Virus record (IMG/VR): IMGVR_UViG_3300025133_003111 | Coordinates: 1 to 31,895 of that record | DNA from: a virus | DNA: 31,895 nucleotides | Strand: one strand, 5' to 3' | Shown here: positions 109 through 13,775 of the stretch, piece after piece | Numbering within the stretch: the stretch's first letter is position 1 | How the letters are laid out: each line of letters starts with the position of its first letter | The notes under the pieces: generated by a model | Databases searched by the model: none | The model's input: the letters and a program-made list of their open reading frames with translations, nothing else | What the model was told of the DNA's origin: nothing | Program-made: the position numbers and the translations under genes

Positions 109-128
109 TTGGTAAGCTGTGATACCAA
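109..128 (+). other. Small hairpin in the leader
   Basis: TTGGTA (109-114) and TACCAA (123-128) are perfect reverse complements separated by eight bases, with a possible extra G-U pair outside. A competing five-base stem, AAAAG (97-101) with CTTTT (106-110), shares two of its bases, so the two could be alternatives. The function is unknown. Confidence 0.3.
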
Positions 129-190
129 GTTGCATTAGTTTTAGAATTATGTTAATAAGAGAGTGTTTGATGGTTTTTGTCTCTCTCCTT

Positions 191-278
191 GGGACTTGGT
201 CTTATCTTATATGTGTAACCTAATTGCCTTTGGGATCAAAAAGGTACTATTTGATAAGACTGAGTCCCTAACTTTTTT
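191..278 (+). terminator. Long inverted repeat followed by a T-run (terminator-like or processing site)
   Basis: Bases 191-206 pair with 253-268 along 16 positions: 14 Watson-Crick pairs plus two adjacent G-U pairs in the middle. After a two-by-two mismatch the pairing continues for three more bases (209-211 with 248-250). Inside the 46-base loop a second stem is possible, CCTTT (227-231) with AAAGG (240-244). Four bases after the main stem comes a run of six T (273-278). The whole fold looks like a large rho-independent terminator or an RNase III-type processing hairpin. It could also be a small structured RNA. It lies upstream of queE and downstream of the candidate -10 box at 48-53, so it may attenuate transcripts started at the left end. 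Confidence 0.4.
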
Positions 279-363: not shown

Positions 364-957
364 ATGAAATATAAAATTAAAGATATATTTGGGCCAACAA
401 TCCAAGGGGAAGGTGCTTTGATGGGTACACCTTGCGCTTTCCTGAGATTCAGCAAATGCAATCTTTGGGACGGACGGGAAGAGAGTAGACATCTCGCAGA
501 GTGCAAAATTTGCGACACCGATTTTCTGGAATACAAAAAAATGACCGCAGAACAAATAGTCAAAAAGTTAAAGCCCTACAGAAATTATGCGGAATGGTTG
601 GTGGTGAGTGGTGGGGAGCCATTGTTGCAATTTGATTTTAATTTGGCAAGCCAGTTAGATGAATGGAAAATTTGTGTGGAAACAAATGGAACACAAGCCA
701 TTGACTTTCAGGTTGACCATGTAAGTTTTTCTCCAAAAACAAAAATGGAACGAATCAAATTAAAAAAATGTGATTCTTTGAAAATCTTATGGCCTGACCC
801 TCTTGGTCTGCTTCAAGAGTTCGATTCGTTCCCTGCCAAAAAAAGATTTTTACAGCCCATCAATGGACAGATTAGTTCAACGCTAGACAAACTATATGAA
901 TTAGGGGGGAGATATTTGTTGTCTCCACAACTTCATAAATATATAGGAGTCATGTGA
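364..957 (+). CDS. queE: 7-carboxy-7-deazaguanine synthase (radical SAM)
   Basis: QueE converts 6-carboxytetrahydropterin to 7-carboxy-7-deazaguanine (CDG) using S-adenosylmethionine and a 4Fe-4S cluster. It is a committed step to preQ0, queuosine and 7-deazaguanine DNA bases. The 197-residue protein has the QueE-type spacing C32-x14-C47-x2-C50 for the cluster, in place of the usual radical SAM C-x3-C-x2-C. It also has the N-terminal IQGEG substrate motif (13-17) and the SGGEPLLQ motif near residue 83 that contacts SAM. Length is normal for the compact QueE class. ATG 364 is the first start after a stop pair (tag tag) and has no good ribosome site. The gene overlaps queD by one base. Together with queD and the DpdA-like gene it indicates DNA modification, because phages have little need for tRNA queuosine alone. 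Identification is strong. Confidence 0.93.
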   Translation: MKYKIKDIFGPTIQGEGALMGTPCAFLRFSKCNLWDGREESRHLAECKICDTDFLEYKKMTAEQIVKKLKPYRNYAEWLVVSGGEPLLQFDFNLASQLDEWKICVETNGTQAIDFQVDHVSFSPKTKMERIKLKKCDSLKILWPDPLGLLQEFDSFPAKKRFLQPINGQISSTLDKLYELGGRYLLSPQLHKYIGVM

Positions 958-1349
958 TGTTTATTTTAAAAAAAGAGTTTCGCTTTGAGGCAGCACATTA
1001 TCTGCCTCTAGTTCCAGACCGCCATCCATGCAAACGACTCCATGGACATTCTTATGCCGTGGCGATTGAGGTTGGCTCGAAACATTTAAAAAATGGGTTC
1101 GTTGTGGATTTTGCAGAAATTAATAAGTTAATTAAGCCAGTCATAGAAAAGTTAGATCATCAACTGCTTAATGAGTTCGTGGAGAACCCAACCGTTGAAA
1201 ATTTGTGTTCCTATGTTGCGGATAATTTTTTAGCCAACATTGTAGATAACACATACGACAGACGTGATCAAGAAATATACCTTTTAGCCGTGGAAGTTTC
1301 AGAGACAGCGAAAACGAAATGCAGACTCGAGTTGAAGGAAGTCCTATGA
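957..1349 (+). CDS. queD: 6-carboxy-5,6,7,8-tetrahydropterin synthase
   Basis: QueD turns 7,8-dihydroneopterin triphosphate (made from GTP by FolE) into 6-carboxytetrahydropterin, the substrate of QueE. Counting from ATG 957, the zinc ligands are H14 (in FEAAHYLP) and H29 and H31 (in LHGHSY). C25 is the likely catalytic cysteine, H68 lies in LDHQLLN, and a late glutamate lies in VEVSETAKTKC. All are standard for the 6-pyruvoyltetrahydropterin synthase/QueD family, and about 130 residues is the usual size. An in-frame GTG at 954 could also start it, but AGGAG at 945-949 is better spaced for ATG 957, which overlaps the queE stop as TGATG. No folE or queC is visible in the window, so the host would supply GTP cyclohydrolase. 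Confidence 0.93.
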   Translation: MFILKKEFRFEAAHYLPLVPDRHPCKRLHGHSYAVAIEVGSKHLKNGFVVDFAEINKLIKPVIEKLDHQLLNEFVENPTVENLCSYVADNFLANIVDNTYDRRDQEIYLLAVEVSETAKTKCRLELKEVL

Positions 1350-1975
1350 GAATTTATCTTGCCAACCACTCTAGCCCTACACTTCATTATTTAGCAGGGA
1401 GGTATCTAGGTAGGATAGGGTGGCTCTTAACGCCTGATGGGTTTAAATCATGTAAACCTAGGCCTTGGATACCTATGGCCTTCGATAACGGAGCTTTTTC
1501 GGCATATCAAAATAAGACGGAGTGGAATGAAGAGGCATGGTTGGAAATGTTAAAGAAAATTGATCGACTGAATATTGAGCCTGAATGGGTTTTGGCTCCA
1601 GATTGTGTGGGAGACAAGGATGAAACCCTTAAAATGTTTTATATATACAGATATCATCTTAGTTCGAGAAACTTTAAAACTTTTTTTGCCGTTCAAGACG
1701 GGTGTTTACCTCAAGATGTACCTACAACCGCACACGGTATATTTGTAGGAGGGACTCTAGCTTGGAAATGGAAGACTTTATCCATGTGGTGTAAGGCCTT
1801 TAAAAGGGTACACGTTGGCAGAGTAAACCGTCCTAATCGACTAATTCAATGTTACAAGGAAAAAGTGGAAAGTGTAGATGGTACGGGATGGTTCAGAAGA
1901 CCTCCATTAGAATGGCAGGATGAATTAGAAACATTTTTCAACAAACATTCAGATACAAAGGAGAAACAAAAATGA
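1346..1975 (+). CDS. dpdA: Short TGT/DpdA-like 7-deazaguanine DNA transglycosylase
   Basis: This is probably the enzyme that exchanges guanine for a 7-deazaguanine in phage DNA. From ATG 1346 (209 residues) it shows, in order, the landmarks of the tRNA-guanine transglycosylase barrel. AFDNGAF (D47) resembles the TDSGGFQ motif. APDCVGD (86-90) and FAVQDG (114-119) follow. GIFVGGT (131-137) resembles the glycine-rich GGLAVGE loop. VHVGRVNRP (155-163) comes next, and SVDGTGW (D178) sits where the nucleophilic aspartate is expected. The alignment is by eye. Bacterial TGT and DpdA are about 370 residues or more, so this is a reduced form without the usual zinc-binding tail. An in-frame ATG at 1319 exists, but 1346 overlaps the queD stop as ATGA and follows AAGGA. 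Adjacent queE and queD make the role likely. It could instead act on RNA. Confidence 0.72.
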   Translation: MRIYLANHSSPTLHYLAGRYLGRIGWLLTPDGFKSCKPRPWIPMAFDNGAFSAYQNKTEWNEEAWLEMLKKIDRLNIEPEWVLAPDCVGDKDETLKMFYIYRYHLSSRNFKTFFAVQDGCLPQDVPTTAHGIFVGGTLAWKWKTLSMWCKAFKRVHVGRVNRPNRLIQCYKEKVESVDGTGWFRRPPLEWQDELETFFNKHSDTKEKQK

Positions 1976-2280
1976 CAGCTTTAGCTTCAATGGTACTCAC
2001 CGTATTTACTTCTTACCTTGTCAATCCATCCTGGTTTGACTCCGGTTCATACCGCTATGAATCCACACACTCTACTCTAGAAGAATGCCAGCTAGTCAAG
2101 CATGGTTTAGATGCCGTCTGTGCAGGAGACTCTCCGTCTCACCTGTATGTAAACTACGATTGGCATAGGGATGAAGATGTACCAGAGGATTTCAATAAGC
2201 CTATGGTGTTCACAAAGTGTGATTATTGGGCAGGGTGTTATTCGCATAGACCAGTAACAAGGACTAACACAGTACAATGA
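1972..2280 (+). CDS. Small protein with hydrophobic N-terminus and four cysteines
   Basis: I do not recognise this 102-residue protein. Residues 1-17 are hydrophobic and could be a signal sequence or membrane anchor, though a leading positive charge is missing. The rest is polar, with cysteines at 39 and 50 and two more near 83 and 88, a pattern that would allow two disulfides in the periplasm. The start is well supported: AAAGGAG at 1957-1963, ATG 1972, and a four-base ATGA overlap with the dpdA-like gene. Its own end overlaps the next gene the same way. Position next to a membrane protein in the early operon would fit an envelope or superinfection-exclusion role, but that is inference only. 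Confidence 0.6.
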   Translation: MTALASMVLTVFTSYLVNPSWFDSGSYRYESTHSTLEECQLVKHGLDAVCAGDSPSHLYVNYDWHRDEDVPEDFNKPMVFTKCDYWAGCYSHRPVTRTNTVQ

Positions 2281-2492
2281 TCTGGATTGAGAGCTTCCTA
2301 TCTATATGGGCTTTAGTAGCCATTAGATTGTTAGCTCAAGGCCACAAGGCAGGGCCTATCGTTGGATGGATAGGTCAGGTCTTGTGGGTTTCCATGTGGA
2401 TATACACTAGACAATATGGTTTTATTCTTATTGATGTCGGACTAGGGTATATCTACTTGGAAGCTTATTTTAAAGGTAAAAAAAGTGAATAA
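2277..2492 (+). CDS. Small integral membrane protein
   Basis: This 71-residue protein is mostly hydrophobic, with about two membrane segments. One is near residues 5-20 and the second runs through roughly 28-64, possibly as two shorter helices broken at the TRQYG turn. It ends in the charged tail FKGKKSE. The aromatic Trp/Tyr-rich stretch recalls fragments of PnuC-type nicotinamide riboside transporters, but it is far too short to be one, and I give no function. ATG 2277 overlaps the previous stop as ATGA. Translational coupling to the Cys-containing protein before it suggests they work together. Confidence 0.6.
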   Translation: MIWIESFLSIWALVAIRLLAQGHKAGPIVGWIGQVLWVSMWIYTRQYGFILIDVGLGYIYLEAYFKGKKSE

Positions 2493-3015
2493 ACCTATGA
2501 GTTTAAGACACCACTCAGGACTATATACTCCAGAAGATTTAGACAAGATCACAGAACTAGGTGATTCACTAGATTTAATAGAAGGTGCAGTCTTGGTGGA
2601 TGGAAAGGATGCAGTAGAGCACAAGAAAAGAAACACCAAGATAGCATGGGTACACCATACCCTTGAAACAGCTTGGATATTCATAAAGATGGCTAAACTA
2701 TGGGAGCTAGAACCTATCTCTATGCTGCAATCATTTCAATATAGTTTATACAATGTCGGGGGTCACTACGATTGGCACAGGGATTTAGGTGCTAATGATG
2801 AGATCGTGAGTAACAGGGTGATATCAGGTGTTCTTCAGTTGAGTGAACCCACAGATTATACAGGTGGTCTACTGGAAGTAGAAAATCATTTTGGCCCACA
2901 TACGATTGAGAAAGAACGGGGCATGGTGACTTCTTTTCCTGCTGGATGGAGACACAGAGTTACACCTGTTACTCACGGTGTTAGAAAGACTTTAGTTATG
3001 TGGGGGTTGCGTTAG
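2485..3015 (+). CDS. 2-oxoglutarate/Fe(II)-dependent oxygenase (prolyl-4-hydroxylase-like)
   Basis: A double-stranded beta-helix oxygenase that would hydroxylate a substrate while decarboxylating 2-oxoglutarate. The iron triad is visible: H98 and D100 in YDWHRD, and H157 in WRHRVTPV. R167 in GVRKTLV would bind the 2-oxoglutarate carboxylate. The spacing matches the P4H/PKHD branch common in marine phages, and 176 residues is a complete catalytic domain. GTG 2485 has AAAGG eight bases upstream and overlaps the previous gene by eight bases; ATG 2497 is the alternative start. The substrate is unknown. It may be a protein or a nucleic acid base, and its place in one operon with the deazaguanine genes makes base hydroxylation worth considering. 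Family assignment is firm. Confidence 0.88.
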   Translation: MNKPMSLRHHSGLYTPEDLDKITELGDSLDLIEGAVLVDGKDAVEHKKRNTKIAWVHHTLETAWIFIKMAKLWELEPISMLQSFQYSLYNVGGHYDWHRDLGANDEIVSNRVISGVLQLSEPTDYTGGLLEVENHFGPHTIEKERGMVTSFPAGWRHRVTPVTHGVRKTLVMWGLR

Positions 3016-11459: not shown

Positions 11460-11820
11460 AGAGTTTCATAAGAAGATGGAGTTAGCCATTGATCAACCTT
11501 ACAGCAAAGAGTTAATGAACTTTAGGTTACGGCTCATCTTTGAAGAGATACAAGAACTGGCAAGTGCAGCTCTTGATATTGAAACTACTACTAATACAGA
11601 AGAACGTAATGTTATGATGCAAGACTTACTTAAAGAAATGTGTGACGTTGTGTATGTGATTAAAGGTATGGCAGTATCATTTGGTATGGACTTTGATAAA
11701 GCATTTGAATTAGTCCATAAGTCTAACATGAGTAAGCTACCACTAATCAAGGATGCTAATGGTAAAGTCCAGAAGGGCTTGAACTATGAGCCTCCGATAC
11801 TGGAGGGATTAATTAATTGA
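11446..11820 (+). CDS. MazG-like all-alpha NTP pyrophosphohydrolase
   Basis: Members of this fold hydrolyse NTPs or dNTPs to monophosphates and pyrophosphate. Many phages carry them to clean the nucleotide pool or dampen (p)ppGpp signalling. The 124 residues show the magnesium-binding pattern: FEEIQEL (an EExxE) near residue 32, and KEMCDVVYV (ExxD) further on. The typical C-terminal stretch GMDFDKAFELVHKSNMSKL is also present. AAGGAG lies ten bases before ATG 11446. The gene overlaps its upstream neighbour by 14 bases and touches the RNR start as TTGA. Its substrate cannot be read from sequence. Confidence 0.82.
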   Translation: MKKVREFHKKMELAIDQPYSKELMNFRLRLIFEEIQELASAALDIETTTNTEERNVMMQDLLKEMCDVVYVIKGMAVSFGMDFDKAFELVHKSNMSKLPLIKDANGKVQKGLNYEPPILEGLIN

Positions 11821-13775
11821 CTCAACCATCAGTTAGAGCACAAGTAATAACAAGACGTACCTACAATAGACCTACGGAGACAGGCTATGAGACGTGGGAG
11901 CAGACTGTAGATAGAGTTATAGATCACCAAAAATGGTTGTGGGCTAGAGCTGCTGGATTTAAGAATGAGTATAGTTCTTTCTTTTCTATAGAAGGACATG
12001 ATGGATTTACAGAGCTTAAAGAATTACGTCAGTTGATGTTAGAACGTAAGGTTATGGTATCTGGTAGGACATTATGGTTAGGAGGAACTGATCTCTCTAA
12101 GAAAAGAGAAGCTAGTCAGTTTAATTGTGCTCATCTTAAAGTGGAGACTATACATGATGTCGTTGATAGCTTGTGGCTCTTGTTGCAGGGATGCGGAGTT
12201 GGCTTTACGCCAGTTGTCGGTACGCTGTCAGGATTTACATCCCCAATCTCAGAAGTTCAAGTTATCCGCTCTAAGAGAACCAAGAAAGGAGGACATGAAG
12301 GAAACAAAGAATCTTTCGATGCCGATACCGGGACTTGGACTCTTGTTGTTGGAGACTCCGCTGAAGCATGGGCAAAAAGTATCGGTAAGCTTCTCGCTTA
12401 CAAAGGGAAAACTACAAAGTTCGTACTCGATCTCACACAACTCAGACCTGCTGGCCTCAGATTGTCTGGTTATGGATGGATCAGCTCAGGAGATGCTCCC
12501 CTTGCAAAGGCATTTTCCTCAATCGTTGGGATTCTAAACAAGAAGTCTGGACAGCTACTAAGTAAGATGGATATACTTGATGTAATGAACTGGTTAGGAA
12601 CGGTGCTATCTTCTCGTAGGTCAGCTGAGATAGCTTTGGTTTACCATGATACTCCAGAGTGGGAACAGTTCGCAAGAGCTAAAGATGATCTAACATCTTC
12701 TCCCCACCGTTCTCAATCTAATAACAGCGTAGTCTTTTGGAAGGAGCCTACTGATGCACAACTGGGACAGGTCTTTGAGATTATTAAAGAAAGCGGAGGT
12801 TCAGAACCAGGAATTATCAATGGAAAAGAAGCAAGAAGAAGAGCACCTTGGTTTTCAGGAGTCAACCCATGTGCAGAAATCCTCCTTGGAAATAAAGCTT
12901 TCTGTAATCTTACCGAAGTGGATATTGGAAAGTTCAGAGATGACAACGGAGGACTCGATAGAGCAATCTATGTTACAGCTAGGGCGAACTATAGGCAAAC
13001 GCTTGTCAACCTTGATGATGGAATCCTACAAAGAACATGGCATGAGAACAACGAATATCTCAGACTCTGTGGAGTTGGTCTTACGGGAATCACCACCAGA
13101 GATGACCTTAATGAATACGATTATAAGAGATTTAAAAACATAGCAATACACGGGGCTTACTCAATGGCAGACGAGCTAGGTACTCAACGTCCTAAGAATG
13201 TCACTACTATTAAACCTAGTGGTACATTGAGTAAGATTATGGATACTACTGAAGGATGCCATAAACCTATCGGTAAGTATATCTTTAACAATGTTAACTT
13301 TTCTGTTAATGATCCTATGTTACCTAAGCTGAGAGAAGCAGGGTATCATGTGGTTACTAATCCTATTGATGAACATAATGTTATTGTTACTTTTCCTGTA
13401 GCTTGGGAGAACATTAGGTTTTCTAAAGAGGGAGATAAATATGTTAATGACGAGACGGCTATTGAACAGTTGGAACGATACAAGTTACTCATGGATTCTT
13501 ACGTTGAACAGAACTGCTCGATTTCAGTTTATTATAAAGAGGATGAAATCCCTGCTATTAGAAATTGGCTTAAGGATAATTGGTCTAGCTACGTTGGTGT
13601 TAGCTTTCTTCCCATTACTAATACCGTCTATTCGTACCTACCGCAAGAAGTTGTAACAGAAGAAGCATACAATGAGTACGTCTCACAGTTAACTGAAGTA
13701 GATTTTAGTTCTACTGATAGTTCACATGAGATAGAAAATGATGAGTGTGTTACTGGTGTGTGTCCTACTAAATAA
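11817..13775 (+). CDS. Adenosylcobalamin-dependent (class II) ribonucleotide reductase, monomeric
   Basis: Reduces ribonucleotides (by family, triphosphates) to deoxyribonucleotides using coenzyme B12, thus independent of oxygen but dependent on host cobalamin. The key cysteines of the Lactobacillus leichmannii-type enzyme are all present. C104 (QFNCAHL) and C363 (FCNLTE) would form the reducible pair. C352 (NPCAE) is the thiyl-radical cysteine with E354 nearby. C644 and C649 form the C-terminal shuttle pair. The 11-residue spacing C352-C363 equals that of C408-C419 in the reference enzyme. The 652 residues are shorter than the 739 of that enzyme. Translation appears to start at TTG 11817, with GGAGG at 11802-11806 and a TTGA overlap with the MazG-like stop; no ATG or GTG fits. 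Two patches of higher GC and different codon choice lie inside (see findings). Confidence 0.93.
   Translation: MTQPSVRAQVITRRTYNRPTETGYETWEQTVDRVIDHQKWLWARAAGFKNEYSSFFSIEGHDGFTELKELRQLMLERKVMVSGRTLWLGGTDLSKKREASQFNCAHLKVETIHDVVDSLWLLLQGCGVGFTPVVGTLSGFTSPISEVQVIRSKRTKKGGHEGNKESFDADTGTWTLVVGDSAEAWAKSIGKLLAYKGKTTKFVLDLTQLRPAGLRLSGYGWISSGDAPLAKAFSSIVGILNKKSGQLLSKMDILDVMNWLGTVLSSRRSAEIALVYHDTPEWEQFARAKDDLTSSPHRSQSNNSVVFWKEPTDAQLGQVFEIIKESGGSEPGIINGKEARRRAPWFSGVNPCAEILLGNKAFCNLTEVDIGKFRDDNGGLDRAIYVTARANYRQTLVNLDDGILQRTWHENNEYLRLCGVGLTGITTRDDLNEYDYKRFKNIAIHGAYSMADELGTQRPKNVTTIKPSGTLSKIMDTTEGCHKPIGKYIFNNVNFSVNDPMLPKLREAGYHVVTNPIDEHNVIVTFPVAWENIRFSKEGDKYVNDETAIEQLERYKLLMDSYVEQNCSISVYYKEDEIPAIRNWLKDNWSSYVGVSFLPITNTVYSYLPQEVVTEEAYNEYVSQLTEVDFSSTDSSHEIENDECVTGVCPTK

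Follow-up and report, generated by a model that had tools for sequence, protein, structure and literature searches.

A queE-queD-dpdA-like operon in a T7-like ocean virus contig and its probable role in replacing guanine in phage DNA

A T7-like ocean virus contig was found to carry an overlapping three-gene operon, queE-queD-dpdA-like, with intact catalytic motifs, the last gene of which codes for a small protein (P0003) predicted to fold as the barrel of the tRNA-guanine transglycosylases (TGT). The cassette probably swaps guanines in the phage DNA for a 7-deazaguanine and thus protects this DNA from host enzymes. The new element here is a minimal TGT-fold family tied to partial 7-deazaguanine pathways, in a T7-like phage. 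In the reading that we prefer, and to which we give a probability of about one half, phage QueD and QueE would raise the level of 7-carboxy-7-deazaguanine (CDG), a host QueC would make preQ0 and the small DpdA-like enzyme (mini-DpdA) would insert preQ0 in the phage DNA.

The three-gene cassette

The whole stretch of DNA analysed (31.9 kb), hereafter the window, is a linear IMG/VR virus contig that has no end repeats and is incomplete. It contains neither terminase nor right-end genes and is about 5 kb short on the left compared to its siblings, as in the sibling L094 ~5 kb separate the terminase from the point that matches the window. The T7-like traits are a single-subunit RNA polymerase, an endonuclease I, a PolA and a T7-type scaffold and connector, and the nearest DNA polymerases are those of distant marine and other isolates (<=46%). 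The window also codes for an adenosylcobalamin-dependent class II ribonucleotide reductase (11817-13775; TIGR02505, 508 bits).

The identity of the three genes and their location at 364-1975, as proposed in the initial annotation, were confirmed by profile matches, motifs and fold (Table 1). QueE matched TIGR04508 over its full length (E 1e-38) with a score of 133 bits, which is below the family cut-off of 240 bits, and also matched phrog_2076 (E 2.5e-21). Its Cx14CxxC and GGEP motifs are found at residues 32 and 83, respectively. QueD scored above the cut-off of TIGR03367 (91.7 bits), matched PF01242 (E 7e-28) and contains a CxxxHGH motif at residue 25 (CKRLHGH). Both proteins retain their metal-binding and catalytic motifs.

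Profile searches of the 31.9 kb window gave no match to QueC and FolE of the preQ0 pathway, nor to QueF, YhhQ or the TGT Pfam models, in agreement with the earlier remark that queC was not visible there. Since the contig is incomplete, this absence of queC concerns the window and not necessarily the genome, and the missing part could hold the gene. Leftward extension by the terminal 30-mer yielded no overlapping virus contig, and neither copy of the cassette reaches further left. The second copy lies on another contig (L001), with 98.96% identity over 6.6 kb, which argues against misassembly. With QueE as the query, no virus loci beyond L001 were found.

Table 1. Cassette genes and flanking anchors in the window
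Feature	Coordinates	Strand	Description
Leader, left anchor	128..275	+	Conserved block, then 16-bp hairpin; blastn matches to L094, L095, L129, L098 and L100; alignment A4
queE	364..957	+	CDG synthase, radical SAM, Cx14CxxC type; 197 aa
queD	957..1349	+	6-carboxytetrahydropterin synthase; 130 aa; ATG at 957 overlaps the queE stop
P0003 gene	1346..1975	+	Putative small DpdA-like guanine transglycosylase; ATG at 1346; 209 aa; predicted 8-stranded barrel
Conserved 102-aa ORF, right anchor	1972..2280	+	Present in cassette-less L094, L095, L098 and L129

The leader is common to cassette-less siblings. Its invariant block (GTTGCATTAGTTTTA...GTCTCTCTCC) is located at 128-192, and the arms of the hairpin vary among the phages whereas their pairing is kept (fold z -3.4). 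This element is possibly a promoter, an RNase III site or a terminator. On the right, homology to the closest siblings begins at 1940-2005, and the positions of the two anchors thus indicate that the segment between them has the cassette in place of small early genes. A scan of 68 loci whose RNA polymerase or DNA polymerase is related to that of the window (67 found via RNA polymerase, L001 apart, and the reference phage L159) revealed neither que genes nor a transglycosylase gene, and the cassette is therefore as unusual in this T7-like group as had been supposed.

The 2OG-Fe(II) oxygenase (2485-3015) and the 102-aa and 71-aa ORFs were rejected as parts of the cassette, because cassette-less relatives keep them. 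A C5-cytosine DNA methyltransferase is encoded in the variable early region of the relative L126, which agrees with an anti-restriction role. A 215-aa protein without Pfam match (L129 1506-2153, L095 792-1439) is also found in the variable early region of the siblings, where GP88-family proteins (PF17338) recur (L094 3512-4135, L126 3457-4167).

Predicted fold and conserved residues of P0003

Sequence searches of P0003 in Pfam, NCBIfam, PADLOC and PDB returned nothing useful, and the informative sources were PHROGs, structure and relatives. The sole match in the profile libraries was phrog_15826, of unknown function (E 2.5e-23), and P0003 has the motifs of this family of ~210-aa proteins, namely DNG, PDxxx, QDG, VGGTxxWK, HxGRVN and DGTGW (alignments A1 and A2). 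A comparison of the A2 and A1 profiles was left out of the evidence, as both contain one common sequence. Alignment A2 comprises P0003 and 36 non-redundant relatives from uncultured viruses, and the residues invariant in it are D47-N48, P85-D86, Q117-x-G119, F133-x-G-G...W140-K141, H156...N161 and S176-x-D-G-T-G-W182. Among these, D47, D86, Q117, G135-G136 and D178, invariant in all 37 sequences, stand at the ends of strands 3-6 and 8, and H156 is likewise conserved. Strands 3 to 8 carry one conserved motif each, in the order found in TGT. Next to the conserved QDG, residue 120 is a Cys in P0003 and a Met in nearly all relatives.

The AlphaFold2 model of P0003 is a confident eight-stranded barrel (pLDDT 92.9, pTM 0.90). 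When this model was compared to the PDB using Foldseek, the best 50 matches were all tRNA-guanine transglycosylases (E 2e-6 to 6e-5), including complexes with preQ1 and preQ0 and covalent-intermediate complexes, and alignment with TGT by VIA-align gave a Z of 14.8 over 201 of the 209 residues. The structure prediction thus bears out the TGT barrel that had been suspected initially and places P0003, as modelled, in the TGT/DpdA fold superfamily. The TGT catalytic set (two Asp, a base-recognition Asp, Gln and Gly) is present in barrel order. According to motif order, rather than residue superposition, D178 on strand 8 would be the nucleophile and D47, located after strand 3, the general acid/base.

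The best structural match, found in BFVD, was A0A0F7L9Z1, a 499-aa protein of an uncultured marine virus (27% identity over 208 columns, TMq 0.79). It has twice the length of P0003 and seems to consist of the small transglycosylase domain fused to another domain. Further down the ranking by fold, proteins of Vibrio nt-1 and of Cellulophaga phiST came only at places 27 and 34, respectively.

Distribution of the small family and linkage to que genes

At least 563 relatives of the small family were found in IMG/VR, and 24 isolate records, of the same kinds, were obtained with each of three different queries. A tree of 48 sequences separated the isolates from a group (support 95/94) made up of P0003 and the sequences from metagenomes and MAGs, within which P0003 has a long branch. 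The que label requires at least 6 changes across the starred branches of this tree. Since the small family is frequent among uncultured viruses, with its nearest isolates outside the que-linked clade, isolate collections may underestimate how widespread 7-deazaguanine DNA is. Next to the DNA polymerase gene of the isolate phiG7 (L005 13244-13836), and likewise of SHIN8, two overlapping frames together make up the small transglycosylase gene, and in Erythrobacter phage R6L (L002 7878-10383) and Rhodococcus phage ReqiPine5 (L007 5941-7572) this gene is near a PAPS-reductase-type gene.

Linkage was analysed in 81 loci (79 relatives, the window and L001), picked by similarity to P0003 and including many near-copies. 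The transglycosylase gene is adjoined by que genes in 48 of them, and in 21 of the 36 non-redundant ones. All que genes detected (66/66) share the strand of the transglycosylase gene and lie at most 644 bp from it, and in many cases the stop codon of one gene overlaps the start codon of the next. A tally over the whole length of 47 virus contigs, which may be fragments and of which several with QueD only exceed 39 kb, gave QueD only in 14, QueD and QueC in 5, QueC only in 3, QueC and QueE in 2 and no que gene in 23, whereas FolE was found in none; a weak QueE match (E 8e-4) in one QueD contig was left uncounted. The combination of QueE and QueD is specific to the window and L001.

A phage with QueD alone makes no 7-deazaguanine itself, and host enzymes must therefore take part in this family. 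As the subsets are variable and FolE is never present, the hosts most likely supply the missing steps and complete the pathway for the small-family viruses; this variety makes the old guess that hosts complete phage pathways directly testable. If the host complements the pathway, the absence of QueC from the window is expected, and as the relatives carry almost any subset, most often QueD alone, this absence is by itself no argument for CDG in DNA. Between the two explanations offered in the initial annotation, host supply is hence favoured by the variable subsets and CDG insertion is less favoured, and the lack of QueC loses its value as a special sign of the latter. A strong QueC match was found elsewhere in the genome in six of seven bacterial MAGs with a relative of P0003, and a QueE-type match also in six of seven, a test of QueC in the host that is weak owing to binning. 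Some members may have a different function, since 23 of the 47 contigs have no que gene and the family is represented, with no que gene nearby, in mycobacteriophages, which infect hosts without the Q pathway (PMC6884629).

Proposed function and alternative explanations

According to the preferred reading, dihydroneopterin triphosphate, the product of host FolE, would feed phage QueD and QueE and lead to a larger CDG pool. Host QueC would then convert CDG to ADG and preQ0, and the mini-DpdA would swap guanine for preQ0 in the phage DNA, the likely benefit being resistance to host restriction enzymes. The QueC of the host is an assumption in this scheme. We found no biochemistry of the small DpdA-like family in the accessible literature. 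If the preferred reading holds, a barrel of ~210 residues that lacks the additional domains of known TGTs would suffice for base exchange, presumably on DNA. It would be among the smallest enzymes of this kind and suited to structure work and to tools for writing modified bases in DNA.

The small transglycosylase might instead insert CDG, or decarboxylated 7-deazaguanine, directly and without any need for QueC. Such an explanation fits the presence of QueD and QueE without QueC in the 31.9 kb, which would leave CDG as the end product, and the Cys120 beside QDG in place of Met. Cui et al. 2023 reportedly found dCDG and its decarboxylated form, 7-deazaguanine, in phage DNA. CDG was also raised by Hutinet et al. 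for the phage Bipper, which lacks only QueC (PMC6884629). However, relatives from the same clade (95/94) have either QueC beside the transglycosylase (10 of the 47 contigs) or QueD alone, so that the family in general is not organised around CDG, and the contig is incomplete. We therefore regard direct insertion as rather unlikely, and as a shade more doubtful its widest form, in which P0003, as a member of a widespread family of barrel-only DNA-guanine transglycosylases, inserts CDG or its decarboxylated product independently of host QueC, QueD, QueE and the 209-aa enzyme being sufficient.

It is improbable that the cassette boosts queuosine in host tRNA, with QueD and QueE raising the precursor and the small enzyme acting on tRNA. 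Hosts with the Q pathway already possess a tRNA TGT and would not need a second one, P0003 consists of the barrel only and is unmatched by the TGT Pfam models, and DNA is the substrate of those members of the wider fold group that occur in phages. On the other side, the fold of P0003 is that of the tRNA-guanine transglycosylases, and Hutinet et al. propose such a boost for phages that have que genes but no DpdA (PMC6884629). About equally improbable is that the small family performs another base exchange or nucleotide salvage, the que linkage being only a supply of related substrates. The coexistence with a full-size DpdA in three phages (Sonali, phiG7 and R29Z) and the mycobacteriophage members without a que gene nearby would agree with another reaction, but these isolates all fall outside the que-linked clade of P0003 (95/94). 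Finally, the absence of the cassette from all 68 scanned phage relatives would agree with a non-functional cassette that is decaying or an artefact of assembly, but this is very improbable given that the motifs are intact, the genes overlap and L001 repeats the cassette with a different adjacent leader.

Comparison with known systems

No direct (BLAST) similarity of P0003 to canonical DpdA (DpdA1) was detected, and by sequence P0003 is not a DpdA1 member. Using hhalign, the small family gave a partial match to five phage DpdAs (Prob 92.6, E 4.7e-7, 110 columns) that spans the DSGAF/LDxIGD motifs of canonical phage DpdA, and the two are thus distant relatives. Compared with DpdA1-type proteins, the canonical phage DpdAs, the small family is a separate one; it may equal a DpdA subfamily named by Cui et al. 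2023 (DpdA3/DpdA4). A small-family member and a full-size DpdA are found in one genome in Arthrobacter phage Sonali (gp81 beside gp87, of the DpdA1 type), Escherichia phage phiG7 (split gp20/21 beside gp16) and Vibrio phage R29Z. The earlier observation that P0003 is unusually small is correct (209 aa), but rather than a shortened canonical DpdA it represents a separate small family that coexists with full-size DpdA.

The DpdA1 type (9g, CAjan, Seurat, Sonali gp87) has a TGT-type barrel and que-gene neighbours, as has P0003, and the order of motifs is common to both (DSGAF/DNGAF, LDxIGD/PDxxGD, IGG/VGG, HGxG/HxGRVN and DSSSW/DGTGW). The small family differs by its length (~210 aa versus ~300 aa) and by having QDG where the DpdA1 type has the WH motif. 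Bacterial and human TGT (Z. mobilis 2z1x, 1q2r) have the same fold and order of catalytic motifs as P0003, but share only 10-14% identity with it and are longer (~370 aa versus 209 aa), and P0003 has no TGT Pfam match. The actinophage phrog_15826 proteins (Majeke gp54, Aoka gp40 and Sonali gp81) belong to the family of P0003, with 27-32% identity and the invariant residues in common; however, they are on another branch than the metagenomic clade with P0003 and their operon has no que genes. Some annotators have labelled isolate relatives of P0003 as 'DpdA-like'.

In gene content, the phage described here can be likened to Mycobacterium phage Bipper, which has DpdA and preQ0 genes and no QueC, although Bipper lacks QueC only whereas the window is without FolE as well (PMC6884629). 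Short transglycosylases like P0003 are also found in Pantoea phage MED16 (gp38, 261 aa) and Salmonella phage 7-11 (gp32, 234 aa), both of which are closer than P0003 to the canonical DpdA motifs. These two DpdA singletons go with dADG in the virion DNA; the phages have no que genes, and a host-made precursor is thought to be used. In CAjan, dPreQ0 depends on the phage DpdA, and DNA modified in this way is protected from restriction enzymes (PMC6884629).
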